A stretch of DNA of 64,000 nt, from contig NZ_NMZM01000006.1 in assembly GCF_002751875.1 (NCBI RefSeq), positions 1 through 64,000 of the forward strand. The letters run 5' to 3'. Below, piece after piece: positions 5,474-22,657 of this stretch (position 1 is the first letter of the stretch; each line of letters opens with the position of its first letter). Made by a program: the position numbers and the translations under genes. The DNA comes from Oceaniglobus indicus (GTDB lineage Bacteria; Pseudomonadota; Alphaproteobacteria; Rhodobacterales; Rhodobacteraceae). The notes under the pieces were generated by a model. The model had not been told where the DNA came from. It made no database searches and saw only the letters and a program-made list of their open reading frames with translations.

Positions 5474-5486
5474 CATCGCCGCGATG

Positions 5487-6463
5487 TCAGGGATAATGCA
5501 CGCCGCCTTCGGCGCGGCGCGGTTCGGTGTTGTCCTCGGGCAGCGGGATGAACTCCTCCTCGTCGCCGGGCACGGTTTCAAACCGGCCGAGGGCCCATTC
5601 CTCCTTGGCCTGCTCGATCCGCTCGCGGCGCGAGGATACGAAGTTCCACCAGATATACCGCGGGCCTTCCATCGGCGCGCCGCCGAACAGCATGAAGCGC
5701 GCGTGGTCGCCGGTGCCGTCGTCCACCGCCTTGACCACGATCTCGTCACCGGGGCGCAACACCAACAATTCGCCGGGCTTGAACGTGTCGCCCGCCACTT
5801 CGATCTGTCCGTGAATGGTATAGATCGCGCGTTCTTCGGTATTGGCCGCGATCGGCGCACGGGCCCCGGGGGCCAGCGTCACATCACCATAGAGCGTGTC
5901 GGACGCCGTGTTGAGCGGCGAGGTCGCGCCAAAGGCCGAACCCGCAATCAGCCGCGCCTTCAGCCCCTCGGCCTCGACCACGGGCAGGTCAGTCTTGCCG
6001 TGGTGCATGAAGGCCGGATCGGATTCCTCATCGTCCTCCGGCAGGGCCATCCAGGTCTGGATGCCGAACAGGCGCTGTCCGGTCCGCAACCGTTCGGGCG
6101 CGGTCCGCTCGGAATGCACGATGCCCTTGCCCGCCTTCATCCAGTTCACCGCCCCCGGCTCGATCGCCAGATCGGTGCCCAGGCTGTCGCGGTGGTGAAT
6201 CTGCCCCTCGAACAGATAGGTCAGCGTGGCAAGGTTGATATGCGGATGCGGCCGCACGTCGATGCCTTCATTGGTCAGGAATTCCGCCGGCCCCATCTGG
6301 TCGAAAAAGATGAAGGGGCCCACCATCTGGCGTTTCTTCGACGGCAGCGCTCGGCGCACCTCCATCTCGCCCAGATCGACCGCGCGCGGCACGATCAGGG
6401 CGAGATGGCGTCCGTGCTTGCACGGTCGCCGGGAACGGGGTCGGGGCAAGGGCTCCAGCTCAT
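5487..6463 (-). CDS. Pirin family protein, with an apparent 1-base deletion near the N-terminus
   Basis: A cupin-fold pirin. It contains VRRALPSKKRQMVGPFIFFDQ, the metal-site motif DVRPHPHINLATLTYLFEG, HRDSLGT and GKGIVHSER, so the Fe-binding HPH...H...E set is present. The natural start MSWSPCPDPVPGDRAST at 6463 follows a good AAAGGA ribosome site but is in a different frame from the body. Inserting one base at about 6400 would join them as ...DAISALIVPRAV..., exactly the family pattern. Either the gene is frameshifted or the assembly lost a G; alternatively translation starts at an in-frame GTG at 6392. It is the last gene of the dioxygenase operon. Some pirins are quercetinases. Confidence 0.8.
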
Positions 6464-6502
6464 GGTCTCGGTCCTTTCTGATTGATGGCGGATGTGCGCG
6501 CG

Positions 6503-14201: not shown

Positions 14202-14504
14202 ATGTTACTCAGCATGCACGAACAGGAACGGCTCATGGTCTATACGGCCGGCAAACTTGCGCTGGAACGCAAGGAGCGCGGCCTGAAACTGAACCTGCCC
14301 GAGGCGACCGCCTTGCTGACGTCCTATCTTCTTGAAGGGGCGCGCGACGGGAACACCGTGACCGACCTGATGGAATCGGGCCGCAACGTGCTGGGCCGCG
14401 AGGACGTGATGGAAGGCGTGCCGGAAATGATCGCGCAGATCCAGGTCGAAGCGACCTTTCCCGACGGCACCAAGCTTGTCACAGTGATGGAGCCGATCCG
14501 ATGA
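14202..14504 (+). CDS. ureA: Urease gamma subunit
   Basis: A 100-residue urease gamma subunit, the usual length. It contains [74 protein letters not shown] and the ending PIR. With UreB and UreC it forms the (alpha-beta-gamma)3 enzyme that hydrolyses urea to ammonia and CO2. It overlaps ureB by 4 bp. Unusually for alphaproteobacteria, no ureD lies in front of it; ureD is placed between ureF and ureG. Confidence 0.97.
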
Positions 14505-15058
14505 CCCTCAAGCTCAACCCCTTTGCCCAGCTGGTGTCCGACAACAAGGATGCCGCGAAGGCCAGGCACGTGTCCGACGATCCCGGCCGGGACTATGACC
14601 AGACCAGTTCGGATGCGCCCGAGCAGACCAAATCTTCGGGCGTCAGCGGCCCGAGCGCGCCGCGCCGCCCCGGTGGCGGCACACGCCAGGCGCCGCGCCG
14701 CCGGTCGGAAGAGGCGCTGGACGAAGCGCGCGATCCCCTGGTGCCCGGCGAGATCCTGTTCGGCGAAGGCGATGTCGTGATCAACGAGGGTCTCGAGGTG
14801 ACGACCCTTCGCGTCGCCAACACCTCTGACCGGCCGATCCAGGTCGGCTCGCATTTCCATTTCGCCGAGGTGAACGCCGCGCTTGAATTCGACCGCGATG
14901 CGGCCTGGGGCAAGCGTTTGGCCGTGCTTTCGGGCGGGGCCGAGCGGTTTGAACCGGGCGCCGAGGCCGAGGTGGGCCTGGTGCCGATCCGGGGCAAACG
15001 CATCGTTCTGGGCCTGCGCGGTCTGTGCAAGGGAGAGCTCGACAATGCAAAAGGTTGA
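14501..15058 (+). CDS. ureB: Urease beta subunit with long N-terminal extension
   Basis: A 185-residue protein; free-standing UreB proteins are normally about 100. The UreB fold starts near residue 80 ([18 protein letters not shown]) and includes the invariant [22 protein letters not shown], then [19 protein letters not shown] and LGLRGL. Residues 1-79 form an Arg/Pro/Ser/Asp-rich, probably disordered stretch ([20 protein letters not shown]) with no similarity to the end of UreA, so it is not a gamma-beta fusion. It overlaps ureA by 4 bp and ureC by 14 bp. The role of the extension is unknown. Confidence 0.95.
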
Positions 15059-16754
15059 TCGCCGCGAATACGTGGCCTCCTATGGCCCGACCAAGGGCGA
15101 CCGCATCCGGCTGGCCGACACCTGCCTGACCATCGAGGTGGAAGAGGACCGCTCGGGCGGGGGCGACGAATCCGTCTTCGGCGGCGGCAAGTCGATCCGT
15201 GAATCCATGGGCCAATCGTCGCACACCCGCGCCGAAGGAACCCCCGACCTGGTCATCACCGGGGCGGTGATCCTAGACCACTGGGGTATCATCAAGGCCG
15301 ACATCGGCATCCGCGACGGGCGCATCGTCGGCATCGGCAAGTCCGGCAACCCCGACACCATGGACGGCATCGACCCCGCCCTGGTCATCGGCCCCTCGAC
15401 CGAGGTGATGGCCGGCAACGGGTTGATCGCCACGGCGGGCGCCATCGACACCCACGTGCATTTCGTCGGCCCGCAGATGTTGCAGGTGGCGCTGGCGTCG
15501 GGCGTCACCACCGTGACCGGCGGCGGCACCGGCCCGACCGAAGGGTTGAAGGCGACACTGGCCACGCCGGGCGCCTGGTGGATGGAGCGGATGCTGGAGG
15601 GGTTCGATCCCTGGCCGGTGAACGTGCTGTTCCTGGGCCGTGGCAACACCATGTCGAAGGAAGCGATGTGGGAGCAGTTGCGCGGCGGCGTCGGCGGCTT
15701 CAAGGTGCACGAGGACTGGGGCGCGACCCCCGCCGCCATCGACGCCTGCCTGTCGGTGGCCGAGGAATCGGGCGTGCAGGTGGCGATCCATTCGGACACC
15801 CTGAACGAGGCCGGGTTCGTCGAGGATCTGCTGCGTGCTGTCAACGGCCGCACGTTCCATGCCTTCCATACCGAAGGCGCGGGCGGCGGGCATGCGCCCG
15901 ACATCATCTCGATCGCGGGGCAACGCAACGTGCTGCCAGCATCCACCAACCCGACGCGGCCCTTCACCCGCAACACCGTGGCCGAACATCTGGACATGGT
16001 GATGGTCGCTCACCACCTGAACCCCCAGGTCCCGAACGACCTGGCCTTTGCCGAAAGCCGCGTGCGGGCCGGCACCATCGCCGCCGAGGATATCCTTCAG
16101 GACATGGGGGCCATTTCGATCATGTCGTCGGACGCCCAGGCCATGGGACGGATCGGCGAAACCGTCATGCGCACCTGGCAGACCGCGCACCAGATGAAGA
16201 AACTGCGCGGCTCGGTCCCCGGCGACAACCGCGCCGACAACCATCGCGCCCGCCGCTACGTGGCCAAATACACGATCTGCCCCGCCGTGGCCCACGGCAT
16301 GGAGCGCGAGATCGGGTCCATCGAAGTCGGCAAGAAGGCCGACATCGTGATGTGGCAACCGGCGTTGTTCGGGGTGCGCCCGCACACGGTGTTCACCGGC
16401 GGCATGGTGGCGACGGCGGCGCTGGGCGATCCCAACGCCTCGATCCCGACACCGCAGCCGGTGATGGAGCGAACCGGCTTCAACGTCCATTCCCCGGCGT
16501 CGGGCGCGACCAGCTTGGCCTTCGTGTCGCAGGCGGCCATCGACGACGGCCTGGCCGACCGGATCAACACGCGCCGCAAGTTCGTCGCCATCGAGAACAC
16601 GCGCGGCCGCGGTAAGGAGGACATGCCCGAAAACACCGCCCTGCCGAGGATCGAGGTCGACCCCGACACCTATTCGGTGAAGATCGACGGCGAGATCGCC
16701 GATCACGAGCCTGCGACCGAAGTGCCGATGGCGCAACGCTACTTCCTGTTCTGA
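15045..16754 (+). CDS. ureC: Urease alpha subunit, variant with Ala in place of the active-site flap Cys
   Basis: A 569-residue catalytic subunit of normal length. The nickel site is complete: HVH in [10 protein letters not shown], the carbamylated Lys220 in [13 protein letters not shown], His in [10 protein letters not shown], His in [12 protein letters not shown] and Asp in [10 protein letters not shown]. The mobile flap, normally MVCHHLD, reads MVAHHLN: Ala322 (codon GCT at 16008-16010) replaces the conserved Cys next to catalytic His323. ICPQ is changed to VGPQ and SSDSQ to SSDAQ, so this belongs to a divergent UreC branch rather than carrying one chance mutation. In Klebsiella the Cys319Ala mutant keeps activity. 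It is followed directly by ureF. Confidence 0.96.
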
Positions 16755-17441
16755 ATGGAGCAGATCGGGTTGGGACAACAGGCGGCGCTTCTGCTGCTGG
16801 CGGACGGTCGTCTGCCGGCGGGCGGCTATGCCCATTCCGGCGGTCTGGAACCGGCGGTGCGGGCGGGGCGCGTCACGGATATGGCGGGGCTCGAGGCGTT
16901 CCTGATCGGGCGCGCCGCAACCGCCGGGCTGATCGCGGCGGCATTCGCGGCGGTGGCCTGTCAGCGGATGGCACGCGGTGACCTGACGGACCTCGACGCC
17001 CTCGAAACCGAGCTGGACGCGCGGATCCCCTCGCCCGAGTTGCGCAAGGTCTCGCGCGATCTGGGGCGCCAGTTGCGCCGCGCGATGCAGGCGATCCACC
17101 CCCATGGGATTTACGCGAAACTTGGCCCCGCGCCACACCAGCCGATCGTCATGGGGGTCGCGGCGGCCGTGCTGGGCCTGGATCCGCATCGCGCGGCCCT
17201 GGCGATCCTGCACGAGAACAACGCCGGTGCTGCGGCGGCGGCGGCCAAGGTGATGCGTGTCGATCCGTTCGATGTGCATGCCATCCTGGCGCGGATGACC
17301 GCGCAGCTCGACCACTTGGCGCGCAGCGCCGCGCAGGCGGCGGACGGCCCGCTTGCCGACCTGCCCGCCCCCGGCGCGCCACTGTCCGATATCGCCGCCG
17401 AACACCACCGGAGGTCCGATGTCCGGCTCTTTGCATCCTGA
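16755..17441 (+). CDS. ureF: Urease accessory protein UreF
   Basis: A 228-residue, helical UreF. It contains LLLLADGRLPAGGYAHSGGLEPAV (residues 12-35), the family signature with the S/AHSxGLE block, and HQPIVMGVAAAVLGLDP. UreF joins UreD and UreG in the complex that loads nickel and CO2 into apo-urease. Its ATG follows the ureC stop with no gap, and its end overlaps ureD by 23 bp, so expression is tightly coupled. No ureE lies between ureC and ureF, where alphaproteobacterial operons usually have it. Confidence 0.95.
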   Translation: MEQIGLGQQAALLLLADGRLPAGGYAHSGGLEPAVRAGRVTDMAGLEAFLIGRAATAGLIAAAFAAVACQRMARGDLTDLDALETELDARIPSPELRKVSRDLGRQLRRAMQAIHPHGIYAKLGPAPHQPIVMGVAAAVLGLDPHRAALAILHENNAGAAAAAAKVMRVDPFDVHAILARMTAQLDHLARSAAQAADGPLADLPAPGAPLSDIAAEHHRRSDVRLFAS

Positions 17442-18252
17442 CACGGCGGTGAAGTCCACCGGAGCGATGTTCGCCCATGCGGTCCTGGCCTGCGCGCTTT
17501 CGCACGACGGGCGCAAATCGGTCGTCAGCACCCTGCGCTCGGACGGGCCGCTGGTGCTGCGCCAGTGCAACCCGAAGGGGCCCGAACCGCTGATCCACAA
17601 ACGCCGCGACATCGCGCGGGCGTCACTGGCGGCAGGCACCGCGGGGCCGATCGGCGGCGATCGCTATGCCCTGGATGTGCATGTCGGCGCCGGCAGCACC
17701 CTGGTGCTGAACGAAGTGTCGGCCATGCTGGTTTTGCCGGGTGTTGGGGGCGGGCAGTCGCGGATGTCGATCACCATCACCGTCGAGGCGGGCGCCACCT
17801 TCGTGTGGTGGGCGGAACCGATCATCGCCGCCCATCGCTGCAACCACCGCCACGACGTGCGCATCGCGCTGGCCGACGACGCACGTCTTGTCCTGCGCGA
17901 GGAAATGCTGCTGGGCCGGCACGGCGAGACGCCGGGCGATTTCACCAGCCGCCTGCGCATCACCCGCGGGGGTTCGGCGTTGTACGACCAACAGCTCGGC
18001 TTCGGCCCCTCGGCGGCGGGCTGGAACAGCGCGGCCGTGCTGGGGGGCAGGCGCGCGGTCGGCTCGATCATCGCGGTCGAACCCGACTGGGTGCAGACGC
18101 CGCCCGCGGCCCTGCCCTATGACACGCACGCCGCCCTGACACCCCTTGCCGGACCGGGCGTCGCGATCGGCGCGGTCGCCCGGGACAGCCTGGATTTGCG
18201 CCGCCTGCTGACGCAGGGATTGAACACACTCGGCCCGCCCTGGGCGATCTGA
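17419..18252 (+). CDS. ureD: Urease accessory protein UreD (UreH)
   Basis: A 277-residue UreD. It has the beta-helix pattern of the family: LRSDGPLVLRQCNPKG, GTAGPIGGDRYALDVHVGAGSTLVLNEVSA, TFVWWAEPIIAAHRCNH and ALYDQQLGFGP. The ATG after GGAGGTCCG was chosen for its ribosome site; it lies inside the ureF 3-prime end. UreD is the scaffold that binds apo-urease and recruits UreF-UreG. Its position after ureF is unlike the usual ureD-first order in proteobacteria and recalls the actinobacterial ureABCFGD arrangement. Confidence 0.93.
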   Translation: MSGSLHPDTAVKSTGAMFAHAVLACALSHDGRKSVVSTLRSDGPLVLRQCNPKGPEPLIHKRRDIARASLAAGTAGPIGGDRYALDVHVGAGSTLVLNEVSAMLVLPGVGGGQSRMSITITVEAGATFVWWAEPIIAAHRCNHRHDVRIALADDARLVLREEMLLGRHGETPGDFTSRLRITRGGSALYDQQLGFGPSAAGWNSAAVLGGRRAVGSIIAVEPDWVQTPPAALPYDTHAALTPLAGPGVAIGAVARDSLDLRRLLTQGLNTLGPPWAI

Positions 18253-18270
18253 CATCAAGGAGATCACGAC

Positions 18271-19011
18271 ATGACCGACACCATCAACCAGCCCGGTGCG
18301 CGATCCTTGCGGTTGGGCGTTGCCGGCCCCGTGGGCACCGGCAAAAGCTCGGTGATTGCCGCCATCTGCCGCAACCTGCGCGACGAATTCCAGCTCGGCG
18401 TCATCACCAACGACATCTACACGGACGAGGACGCGCGGTTCCTGAAATCCGCGGGCGTCCTGCCCGAGGAACGCATCCGCGCGGTCGAGACCGGATCCTG
18501 TCCGCACACCGCGATCCGCGACGACGTGACCATGAACCTGATCGCGGTCGAGGACATGGAGCGGGACTTTGCCCCGCTCGACATCGTTCTGGTGGAAAGC
18601 GGTGGCGACAACCTGACGGCAACCTTTTCACCGGCGCTGGTCGATGCGCAACTGTTCGTGCTGGACGTGGCCGGCGGCGGCGATGTGGCGCGCAAGGGCG
18701 GGCCGGGCATCAGCGGCGCGGATCTGCTGGTGATCAACAAGATCGATCTCGGCGAACACGTCGACGTCGATGTCGACCGGATGGTCGCCGAGGCGCAGGA
18801 GGCGCGCAATGGCGGGCCCGTTCTTGCGCTGTCACGCAAGCGCCCCGAGACGGTCGAGAAACTGTGCGACTGGGTGCGTCAGATGCAAAGGACCTATGCC
18901 GCCGGTGGCCACATCCCCAAGGATCCCGGCCCCATGGCGCCGCACCATCACGCCCACGACGATGACCACAGGCACGGTCATGGCCATGGGCACGGACATT
19001 CACACGACTGA
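18271..19011 (+). CDS. ureG: Urease accessory GTPase UreG with C-terminal His-rich nickel tail
   Basis: A 246-residue SIMIBI GTPase. The P-loop GPVGTGKSS lies at residues 19-27, then [13 protein letters not shown], the metal-binding CPH in [27 protein letters not shown] and the guanine-specific NKID. The last 22 residues, beginning HHHAHDDDH, hold 11 histidines alternating with Gly and Asp. Such tails are usual on the nickel chaperone UreE, which is missing here, so UreG may have taken over nickel storage or delivery. Some actinobacterial UreG proteins carry the His-rich part at the N-terminus instead. An AAGGAGAT ribosome site precedes the start. Confidence 0.96.
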
Positions 19012-19131
19012 CCCGTCCCGGCACCGTCGGTGCGGTTGCATGATCGCGCCGATGCGGCCAATGATATCCGCTGATGCAAACAAATCCGCCCGCGGGAACT
19101 GTCCGATGGCGCGTTGTGAAGGAGACAGGAA

Positions 19132-19707
19132 ATGAAACGGATTATCGCAGCCACGATGCTGTCGCTCGGTGCCACGCCGGTGCTGGCCCATCTCGATCCC
19201 GGCCAGCACGGATCCCTTGCCGCCGGCCTGTCGCATCCGGTCTTCGGCCTCGACCACATCCTGGCAATGATCGCGGTCGGGCTTTGGGCCGCGGTGCTGG
19301 GGGGGCGCGCCGTCTGGACGCTTCCGGTCGCCTTTGTCGGCGCGATGATGGCCGGGTTCGTCCTTGCCGTGTCGGGTTACGCGCTGCCGCTGGTCGAGCC
19401 GATGATCCTGGTGTCGGTCCTCGCGCTGGGTCTGGCGGTTGCGCTGTCGCTGCGTCTTCCGGTTTCGGCGGCGGCGGGCATCGTCGGCGTATTCGCCCTG
19501 TTCCACGGCCATGCCCACGGCGGCGAGCTGGGCGCGGCCACGGCGCTGACCTTCGGGGCCGGTTTCGCGATCTCGACCGCTTTCCTGCACGGTGTCGGCG
19601 TTGTCATAGCGCTGGCGGCGGGCCGTGCGCTGAGCGGATCGAAGATCATCAAGGGGCTGGGCTGGGCGACAGCCCTCGGCGGCGCCTGGGTCATCGTCGG
19701 CGGCTGA
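19132..19707 (+). CDS. hupE: HupE/UreJ family nickel permease-like protein
   Basis: A 191-residue membrane protein with a cleavable signal (MKRIIAATMLSLGATPVLA) and six or so helices. It holds both family motifs: HPVFGLDHILAMIAVG (HP-x3-G-x-DH) and FALFHGHAHGGELG (FHG-x-AHG). HupE/UreJ proteins import nickel for hydrogenase or urease. It lies 120 bp after ureG with its own ribosome site (AAGGAGA) and completes the urease cluster as its likely nickel supply. Confidence 0.92.
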   Translation: MKRIIAATMLSLGATPVLAHLDPGQHGSLAAGLSHPVFGLDHILAMIAVGLWAAVLGGRAVWTLPVAFVGAMMAGFVLAVSGYALPLVEPMILVSVLALGLAVALSLRLPVSAAAGIVGVFALFHGHAHGGELGAATALTFGAGFAISTAFLHGVGVVIALAAGRALSGSKIIKGLGWATALGGAWVIVGG

Positions 19708-21538: not shown

Positions 21539-22657
21539 ATGCTTTACGTTGATATTCCGTCCCCACGCCAGATCGGCGCGCTCGATCTGGTGCGCTCCGA
21601 TGCCTGTGTGTCGATCTATCTCGCGACAACCCCCCTGACCCAGCAGATCGGCCAAAGCCGGACACGCCTGACCCAGCTGGTCAAGGACGCCGTGCAGCAG
21701 CTGGAGGCGGCAAACGTGGACAAGCGCCGCATCGCCGCGCTGGAGGACCATTTCGAAACCGTGCAGGACGATGATGACTTCTGGGAGGATCAGGCCCACA
21801 GCCTGGCCATCCTCGCCACGCCGGACAAGATCCTGACCTTCCGTCTGCCCAACGAGCTGAGCGAGGTCGTGACGGTTGCCGATCGCTTCCACCTCAAGCC
21901 GCTTTTGCGGGCTGTCACCTTCCCGAACACGGCCCATGTGCTGGCCGTTTCGGAAAACGACGTGCGGCTGATCGAGGTGTCGGGTGATCTGCCCGCCCGC
22001 GAGATCCGGGTGGCCGACATGCCCCGCGACGCCGCCAGTGCCGTCGGCAAGGCCACAATCAACGACAGCGGCGCGGGACGTCGCATCGGTGGCAAGGAAG
22101 GTCAGAAGATCCGCCTGGCGCAATATATCCGCAAGATCGACGCGGCCCTGCGTCCGGTTCTGGCGGGATCCGAGCTTCCGGTCATCCTGGCCTCGACCCT
22201 GCCGGTGGCATCGCTGGTGCGTTCGGTCAGCAGCGTCGAAATGCTGGACAAGGGCATCGAGGCATCCCCCGACGACATGAGCCCGGCCGACCTCGCAACG
22301 GCAGCGCGGCCCGTTCTGGACGCGCATTACGACGACCAGATCGCCGCGCTTCATGACCTGTTCGAAGCCCGCGCCGGGGACAACCGCACCACCACCGACA
22401 TTTCCGACGCGGCCCGCGCCAGCACCTTCGGCGGGATCGACACGCTGTTGGTCGATATCGACAACGTGGTCACGGGCACGATCGACGAAACGTCGGGCGC
22501 GGTCACCTTCCTGCCCGATGGGGGCGCCGGCAGCTATGGCATCGTCGACGAGATCGCCGGTCGCGCCCTGCGCACGGGCGCGCGGGTTCTGGCGGTGCGC
22601 AGACAGGACATTCCGCGCCAACAGGACCTGGCGGCGATCTTGCGCTATCCGATGTGA
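21539..22657 (+). CDS. Bacterial eRF1-like (baeRF-type) protein
   Basis: A 372-residue soluble protein. It contains SDACVSIYLATTPLTQQIGQSRTRL, FWEDQAHSLAILATPDKILTFRLPNEL and HVLAVSENDVRLIEVSGD, which resemble the bacterial/archaeal eRF1-pelota-like family (baeRF). The central region has GGKEGQKIRLAQYIRKIDAAL. Members are thought to act on ribosomes by analogy with eRF1/Pelota, but few have been tested. The ribosome site AAAAGGAAC precedes the ATG. It is 60 bp upstream of the SDR gene and may be co-transcribed with it. The family call is from memory of motifs. Confidence 0.75.
   Translation: MLYVDIPSPRQIGALDLVRSDACVSIYLATTPLTQQIGQSRTRLTQLVKDAVQQLEAANVDKRRIAALEDHFETVQDDDDFWEDQAHSLAILATPDKILTFRLPNELSEVVTVADRFHLKPLLRAVTFPNTAHVLAVSENDVRLIEVSGDLPAREIRVADMPRDAASAVGKATINDSGAGRRIGGKEGQKIRLAQYIRKIDAALRPVLAGSELPVILASTLPVASLVRSVSSVEMLDKGIEASPDDMSPADLATAARPVLDAHYDDQIAALHDLFEARAGDNRTTTDISDAARASTFGGIDTLLVDIDNVVTGTIDETSGAVTFLPDGGAGSYGIVDEIAGRALRTGARVLAVRRQDIPRQQDLAAILRYPM

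Follow-up and report, generated by a model that had tools for sequence, protein, structure and literature searches.

The 64,000-nucleotide stretch of Oceaniglobus indicus DNA analyzed here (hereafter the window; positions 1 to 64,000 of contig NZ_NMZM01000006.1, assembly GCF_002751875.1) contains a urease operon of seven plus-strand genes at positions 14202-19707, arranged as ureA-ureB-ureC-ureF-ureD-ureG-hupE, and each of these genes scored above the curated cut-off of its own Pfam family. The enzyme subunits are encoded by ureA (14202..14504; gamma subunit, 100 amino acids; PF00547, 144.9 bits), ureB (14501..15058; beta subunit, 185 amino acids), whose PF00699 domain covers residues 82-178 behind an N-terminal extension of ∼80 amino acids (residues 1-80), and ureC (15045..16754; alpha subunit, 569 amino acids; NF009685, 1022.6 bits against a cut-off of 907). 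The accessory genes ureF (16755..17441; 228 amino acids; PF01730, 94.2 bits) and ureD (17419..18252; 277 amino acids; PF01774, 94.6 bits) overlap by 23 bases, and all neighboring genes from ureA through ureD abut or overlap. They are followed by ureG (18271..19011; 246 amino acids; TIGR00101, 238.7 bits against a cut-off of 204.2), which encodes the GTPase (G3E fold) of nickel insertion, and by hupE/ureJ (19132..19707; 191 amino acids; HupE_UreJ domain PF04955, 175.4 bits), which encodes a putative nickel permease. The hupE gene also directly follows ureG at loci L019, L024, L026 and L060 and at three Halomonas loci. Family scores identify UreABC as a urease, and the ligand motifs of UreC hold H137, H139, K220, H249, H275 and D363, which correspond to the nickel ligands of the Klebsiella urease. 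The GC content of the cluster (0.66-0.70) was only slightly higher than that of its surroundings (0.64-0.67). Judged from its genes, this is a complete, UreE-less nickel urease operon that is probably working.

UreG has a His-rich C-terminal tail (residues 218-246, positions 18922..19008, plus strand), which begins with a conserved DPGPMAPH motif. Eleven histidines were found in the final 22 residues of the protein and only three in the 217 residues ahead of the tail (binomial P 2e-15). A first-pass annotation, made from the DNA alone, had reported both this count and the gene order, and the gene calls and the sequence agree with it. The P-loop (GPVGTGKS) and the CPH residues of UreG were invariant across 28 aligned sequences. 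An AlphaFold2 model based on this alignment had a mean predicted local distance difference test (pLDDT) score of 80.7, with values below 50 for residues 1-8 and for residues 224-245, and mostly exceeding 70 in the stretch between; its closest solved structures were the UreG proteins of Klebsiella (5xkt; template modeling score 0.93 by target length) and Helicobacter (4hi0). The tail is predicted to be disordered. The ordinary UreG proteins of the family had 0-2 histidines between the end of the core and the C-terminus, and no tail, in the 27 best-scoring loci.

The host genome (3.67 Mb, 26 contigs) is 99.98% complete. When it was searched throughout with the two Pfam domains of UreE, no match to UreE_N exceeded the cut-off of 26.9 (the best of seven weak matches reached 13.7 bits) and UreE_C had no match at all. 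Thus, a hidden ureE was rejected, and the absence of this gene from the operon, as first annotated, extends to the genome. Two proteins passed the cut-off of PF00449 (UreC); since the second of them (25.4 bits) is a D-hydantoinase, there is only one UreC in the genome, and the search for a second, standard urease operon that had been suggested with the annotation found none.

Both UreC and UreG of the window nest among Actinomycetota in our trees. Among the best 80 of 581 UreC matches in named genomes, 11 were stretches of Rhodobacteraceae or Roseobacter kind (94-97%) and three were from Halomonas (85-86%), and the other 66 (82% or less) were all actinobacterial save one Chloroflexota bin. The UreG tree was built from 192 cores with the tail cut off, that is, the window and 191 of 218 UreG frames, short frames, repeats and the window's own copies being left out. 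It contained three groups: ordinary UreG with no His extension, actinobacterial type I, and type II, which has a C-terminal tail beginning with DPGPMAPH or a near variant. For type I, a possible N-terminal extension held at least two histidines in 81 of 97 rows, or in 56 of them when the nearest start codon was used. Type II formed one clade (support 100) of 47 tailed rows, including the window, and one broken duplicate (L059); it should be noted that the type II label was taken from the tail, whereas the tree was built from the core. Within this clade, the window falls in a Rhodobacteraceae subgroup of 12 rows (support 96) beside actinobacterial and Halomonas rows, and outside the ordinary UreG proteins of its family. 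We infer from the nesting that the operon reached Rhodobacteraceae from Actinomycetota. The first-pass annotation had considered either an old transfer or a separate urease lineage, and the trees of UreC and UreG specify this as actinobacterial descent. Its comparison with the actinobacterial order ABCFGD was right as to the actinobacterial link and wrong as to the order itself, which is a derived ABCFDG (hereafter F-D-G, as opposed to F-G-D). All 47 intact rows of the clade, actinobacteria included, carry the tail behind a DPGPMAPH-like motif, which rules out a recent local gain. The proposal that a UreE tail had moved onto UreG in this lineage was therefore not borne out: the tail belongs to the UreG class as a whole, and composition was its only link to UreE tails among the tests made.

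The relationship between UreE and UreG class was then analyzed in two surveys. The family survey covered 345 genomes, sampled evenly from a larger group; 269 of them had UreG and 268 had UreE_N at E ⩽ 0.001 (265 above the cut-off). A UreG of the window's type (at least 84% identity) was present in three genomes, namely the window's own, G152 and G288. None of these three had UreE, versus 262 of the 266 genomes with other UreG proteins (Fisher's exact test, p 1.1e-5). The sole congener surveyed, G183, had no match to UreG and none to the neighboring MATE gene. Four family genomes with ordinary UreG and no UreE were considered as counter-examples and rejected, because two have broken clusters (in G141, UreG and UreF are shortened and no ureC was called nearby; G101 has a ureD-ureG fragment) and two, G146 and G273, are only 83% and 73% complete. 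Of the 296 genomes in the actinobacterial survey, all from the class of Arthrobacter castelli, 107 had UreG and five had UreE above the cut-off, each time within ∼3.3 kb of a UreG lacking a His extension. All 21 genomes with type II UreG in this survey had the tail and no UreE; the tail of G358 is short, with two histidines after the motif. A sixth, weak UreE_N match in G455 (E 6e-4, below the cut-off, in a 1823-amino-acid frame) was not counted as UreE. Finally, 40 relatives were chosen, of which 39 could be searched, and 36 of these had no UreE_N match. The UreE-holding relatives were Pontibaca salina, Halomonas icarae and Mycolicibacterium parafortuitum, each with a second, ordinary ureG 0.9-3.4 kb away; P. 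salina and H. icarae hold both UreG classes, and UreE adjoins only the plain one.

These results can be compared with known systems. According to the parts of Haas et al. (2009; PMC2770081) that deal with ureE-lacking genomes, such genomes, with two exceptions, have a UreG with an N- or C-terminal His-rich motif, which may compensate for the missing UreE. Thus, the central idea of a UreG His stretch standing in for UreE has already been proposed, and the window resembles those ureases in having no ureE in the genome and a His-rich stretch on UreG. The same parts of that paper list a C-terminal stretch for Herpetosiphon aurantiacus, as well as stretches for Mycobacterium and Streptomyces, which are N-terminal in the relatives examined here. 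The alphaproteobacteria in these listings are unlike the window: Bradyrhizobium japonicum has neither ureE nor a stretch, and Rhizobium leguminosarum has ureE and no stretch. The transfer, the DPGPMAPH motif and the mosaic described below go beyond that content, and searches of the open-license literature listed no paper on a tailed Rhodobacteraceae UreG, on the motif or on the mosaic. Compared with the ordinary alphaproteobacterial operon (DABCEFG), the window has the same enzyme and the same UreD/F/G machinery; it differs from that operon, which has UreE (often with a His tail of its own) and a UreG without a tail, in having no ureE in the cluster and a tailed UreG. Another analog, as described in those parts of PMC2770081, is Bradyrhizobium HypB, a GTPase of the same superfamily with its own nickel-binding His stretch, although HypB matures hydrogenase and its stretch lies at the opposite, N-terminal end. 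The clade offers a natural test of whether a His stretch can replace UreE, since within one family most ureases have UreE and plain UreG, and a few have tailed UreG and no UreE.

UreC and UreG both point to actinobacteria, each to a different urease lineage. Type II UreG occurs in F-G-D order at 19 actinobacterial loci (L252-L270, with ureB uncalled in four) and in one of two operons of Streptomyces sp. B-S-A6, and in F-D-G order in Arthrobacter castelli, Brachybacterium, Brevibacterium, a Nanopelagicales bin, Halomonas and Rhodobacteraceae; Georgenia L041 is arranged otherwise. In trees of 82 operons, UreG placed the F-D-G and F-G-D sets in one clade (support 100) and rejected a clade uniting F-D-G operons and their UreC kin (p 1.4e-5). 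In the UreC tree, on the other hand, the F-D-G set joined type I operons of, among others, Arthrobacter echini, Cryobacterium, Sanguibacter and Streptomyces (support 100), and UreC rejected a single clade of all type II operons (p 2.8e-5). The F-D-G set is not one clade within the UreC tree, so more than one exchange is possible. From the first UreC tree, 18 type I rows and 12 operons in which no ureG was called are excluded. The four-gene trees exclude 14 type I rows, three operons in which a gene is missing, the copy of L059 whose ureG is broken, and L272, L273, L282 and L289.

Two discrete characters split the groups in the same way as UreC. Residue 322 of the window's UreC, in a flap motif (MVAHHL) starting at residue 320, is Ala; this position corresponds to Cys319 of Klebsiella. 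Ala was found in 29 of 30 F-D-G records (one unreadable) and in all 16 kin records, and Cys in all 20 type II F-G-D records, in all seven ordinary records and in 28 of the 30 remaining type I records (two could not be read). The second character is the N-terminal extension of UreB (∼60-105 residues with a PRRPG-like motif), which was present in 28 of 30 F-D-G records, the two without it being from one genome with a frame-shifted ureB, and in 10 of 16 kin records. It was present in one of 30 other type I records (perhaps spurious) and absent from 20 F-G-D records (four without a ureB call) and seven ordinary ones (two without a ureB call). These records are not all independent, as L272 and L273 duplicate L020 and L021, and both L024 and L040 enter the counts twice. 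The extension in the window (14501-14740) also contains a DDPGR motif, and is common to one actinobacterial group. The natural Cys-to-Ala change in the flap may lessen sensitivity to thiol-directed urease inhibitors; structures of Klebsiella Cys319 variants are cited in the relevant part of PMC10933438.

The conflict between UreC and UreG suggests a mosaic operon, in which UreABC, UreD and possibly UreF would come from an actinobacterial group with an Ala flap and a mostly extended UreB, and UreG from another actinobacterial lineage marked by the C-terminal DPGPMAPH motif and His tail. Replacement of ureG would explain the F-D-G order: in the simplest account, the operon lost its original ureG from the position between ureF and ureD and gained a tailed type II ureG downstream of ureD. 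The tail itself varies in length and in histidine number (2-18 after the DPG motif). Counted from this motif on, the mean number of histidines was 10.3 in 12 Rhodobacteraceae and 10.7 in three Halomonas rows, versus 5.5 in 13 nearby actinobacterial rows (which include L059 twice, Georgenia and the Nanopelagicales bin) and 6.9 in 20 F-G-D rows. In a rank test the p value was 3.5e-6 against the nearby actinobacterial set (12 rows, the duplicate being dropped) and 2.0e-6 against both sets, where the rows are kin and represent few events. We tentatively suggest, giving it slightly less than an even chance, that UreG is exchangeable as a module. A different actinobacterial urease would have had its native UreG replaced by a tailed, self-chaperoning one, and the resulting chimeric operon, free of UreE, would have spread to Rhodobacteraceae and Halomonas, its tail gaining histidines there. 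If so, UreG can serve a urease with which it did not evolve, and a nickel store of its own makes a urease operon portable. The mosaic, if real, would also make the match between urease and GTPase testable.

Taken as a whole, the data are probably best explained by a transferred, mosaic, UreE-less operon in which the UreG tail fills the store and chaperone role of UreE. HupE, presumably a Ni2+ importer like others of its family, would bring nickel into the cell. The flexible tail would hold several Ni2+ ions near the GTPase and deliver them to the CPH site of the UreG dimer in its GTP-bound state; via UreF and UreD, this dimer would insert them into the apo-enzyme. UreG would thereby take the store and chaperone role held elsewhere by UreE, and it is plausible from the protein families involved that UreG combines the functions of GTPase and nickel chaperone. 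That such operons work is suggested by analogy with Brevibacterium linens BS258, which showed the strongest urease activity of 38 positive isolates and for which six urease genes (three subunits, UreF, UreH and UreG) and no UreE are named in the relevant parts of PMC5382220. Six Brevibacterium loci (L056-L059, L062 and L063) have an F-D-G operon and a tailed UreG like the window, and by genus BS258 itself would be expected to have the tail.

Several points weigh against this explanation. The trees are quick ones built without bootstrap, and only part of the first-look candidates were scored in the surveys, so single UreE genes could have been missed. In addition, one actinobacterium, G506, has a second urease (L293, in ABCFGD order) that lacks ureE and whose UreG bears no His extension, which means that a His stretch is not strictly required. 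This urease fits an alternative in which the tail is a nickel buffer, a sink or a relic with no part in delivery and UreG fills its CPH site with Ni2+ drawn from the cytosol, which would make a chaperone unnecessary; the free variation in tail length and histidine number agrees with it as well. On the other hand, such a role would not readily account for the retention of a DPGPMAPH-type tail in all 21 type II genomes of the actinobacterial survey, or for its absence from the UreE-linked UreG proteins examined. We consider a buffer or relic unlikely, although it is the strongest of the alternatives.

Further points concern the mosaic itself. UreD groups like UreC (support 95.7) without rejecting the other grouping (approximately unbiased (AU) test, p 0.14), and UreF (support 90) does not reject the alternative either (AU p 0.43). 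The UreC-kin set was named only after the UreC tree had been seen, which weakens its test, and the flap residue is itself a column of UreC. It could therefore be argued that the operon was inherited as a unit, that the conflict between UreC and UreG is a tree artifact and that the order changed by simple rearrangement: neither UreD nor UreF rejects a common origin of all tailed-UreG operons, and long branches are present in the UreG and UreF trees. However, UreC and UreG each reject the grouping of the other (p ∼1e-5), and the flap residue and the UreB extension side with UreC, which makes unit descent rather improbable. Least probable is a supply of nickel by another protein such as HypA, SlyD or an unrecognized chaperone: HypB was proposed in the cited parts of PMC2770081 for the two UreE-less genomes without a UreG His stretch, but it was rejected as a donor here because the four proteins of the host genome that passed the PF02492 (CobW/HypB/UreG) cut-off were UreG, CobW, MeaB and FtsY in a family scan (HypA and SlyD were not searched for, a further weak point of our explanation), and slyD does not track the absence of ureE in Table 1 of that paper.

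With regard to the route of the proposed transfer, the window and the remaining loci of Rhodobacteraceae and Halomonas do not share the flanking genes compared, with three exceptions: hupE, one short-chain dehydrogenase/reductase gene (L019 and L024) and, at L018 and L021/L273, a protein of unknown family. Thus, no insertion site could be defined. None of the 206 plasmid records with a UreG match reached 80% identity, and the best two were actinobacterial. In Frondihabitans sp. PAMC 28766 (L296, NZ_CP014514.1), a type II ABCFGD urease cluster with the tail present is plasmid-borne and flanked by transposase genes of the IS30, IS110 and IS3 families, and type II clusters can therefore lie on mobile DNA.

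Some additional observations were made at the loci compared. Brevibacterium sp. UCMA 11754 (L059) has two divergently placed urease clusters, one of them with a broken ureG, and G506 also has a type I urease (L271). In an uncultured Sedimentitalea (L021/L273), ureB is split over two frames, which may be real or an assembly error. Elsewhere in the window, positions 5484-6485 encode a 333-amino-acid protein with no Pfam match, relatives of which are split over two frames near the urease clusters of L018 and L021, and positions 21539-22657 encode a release-factor-like protein of baeRF family 11.

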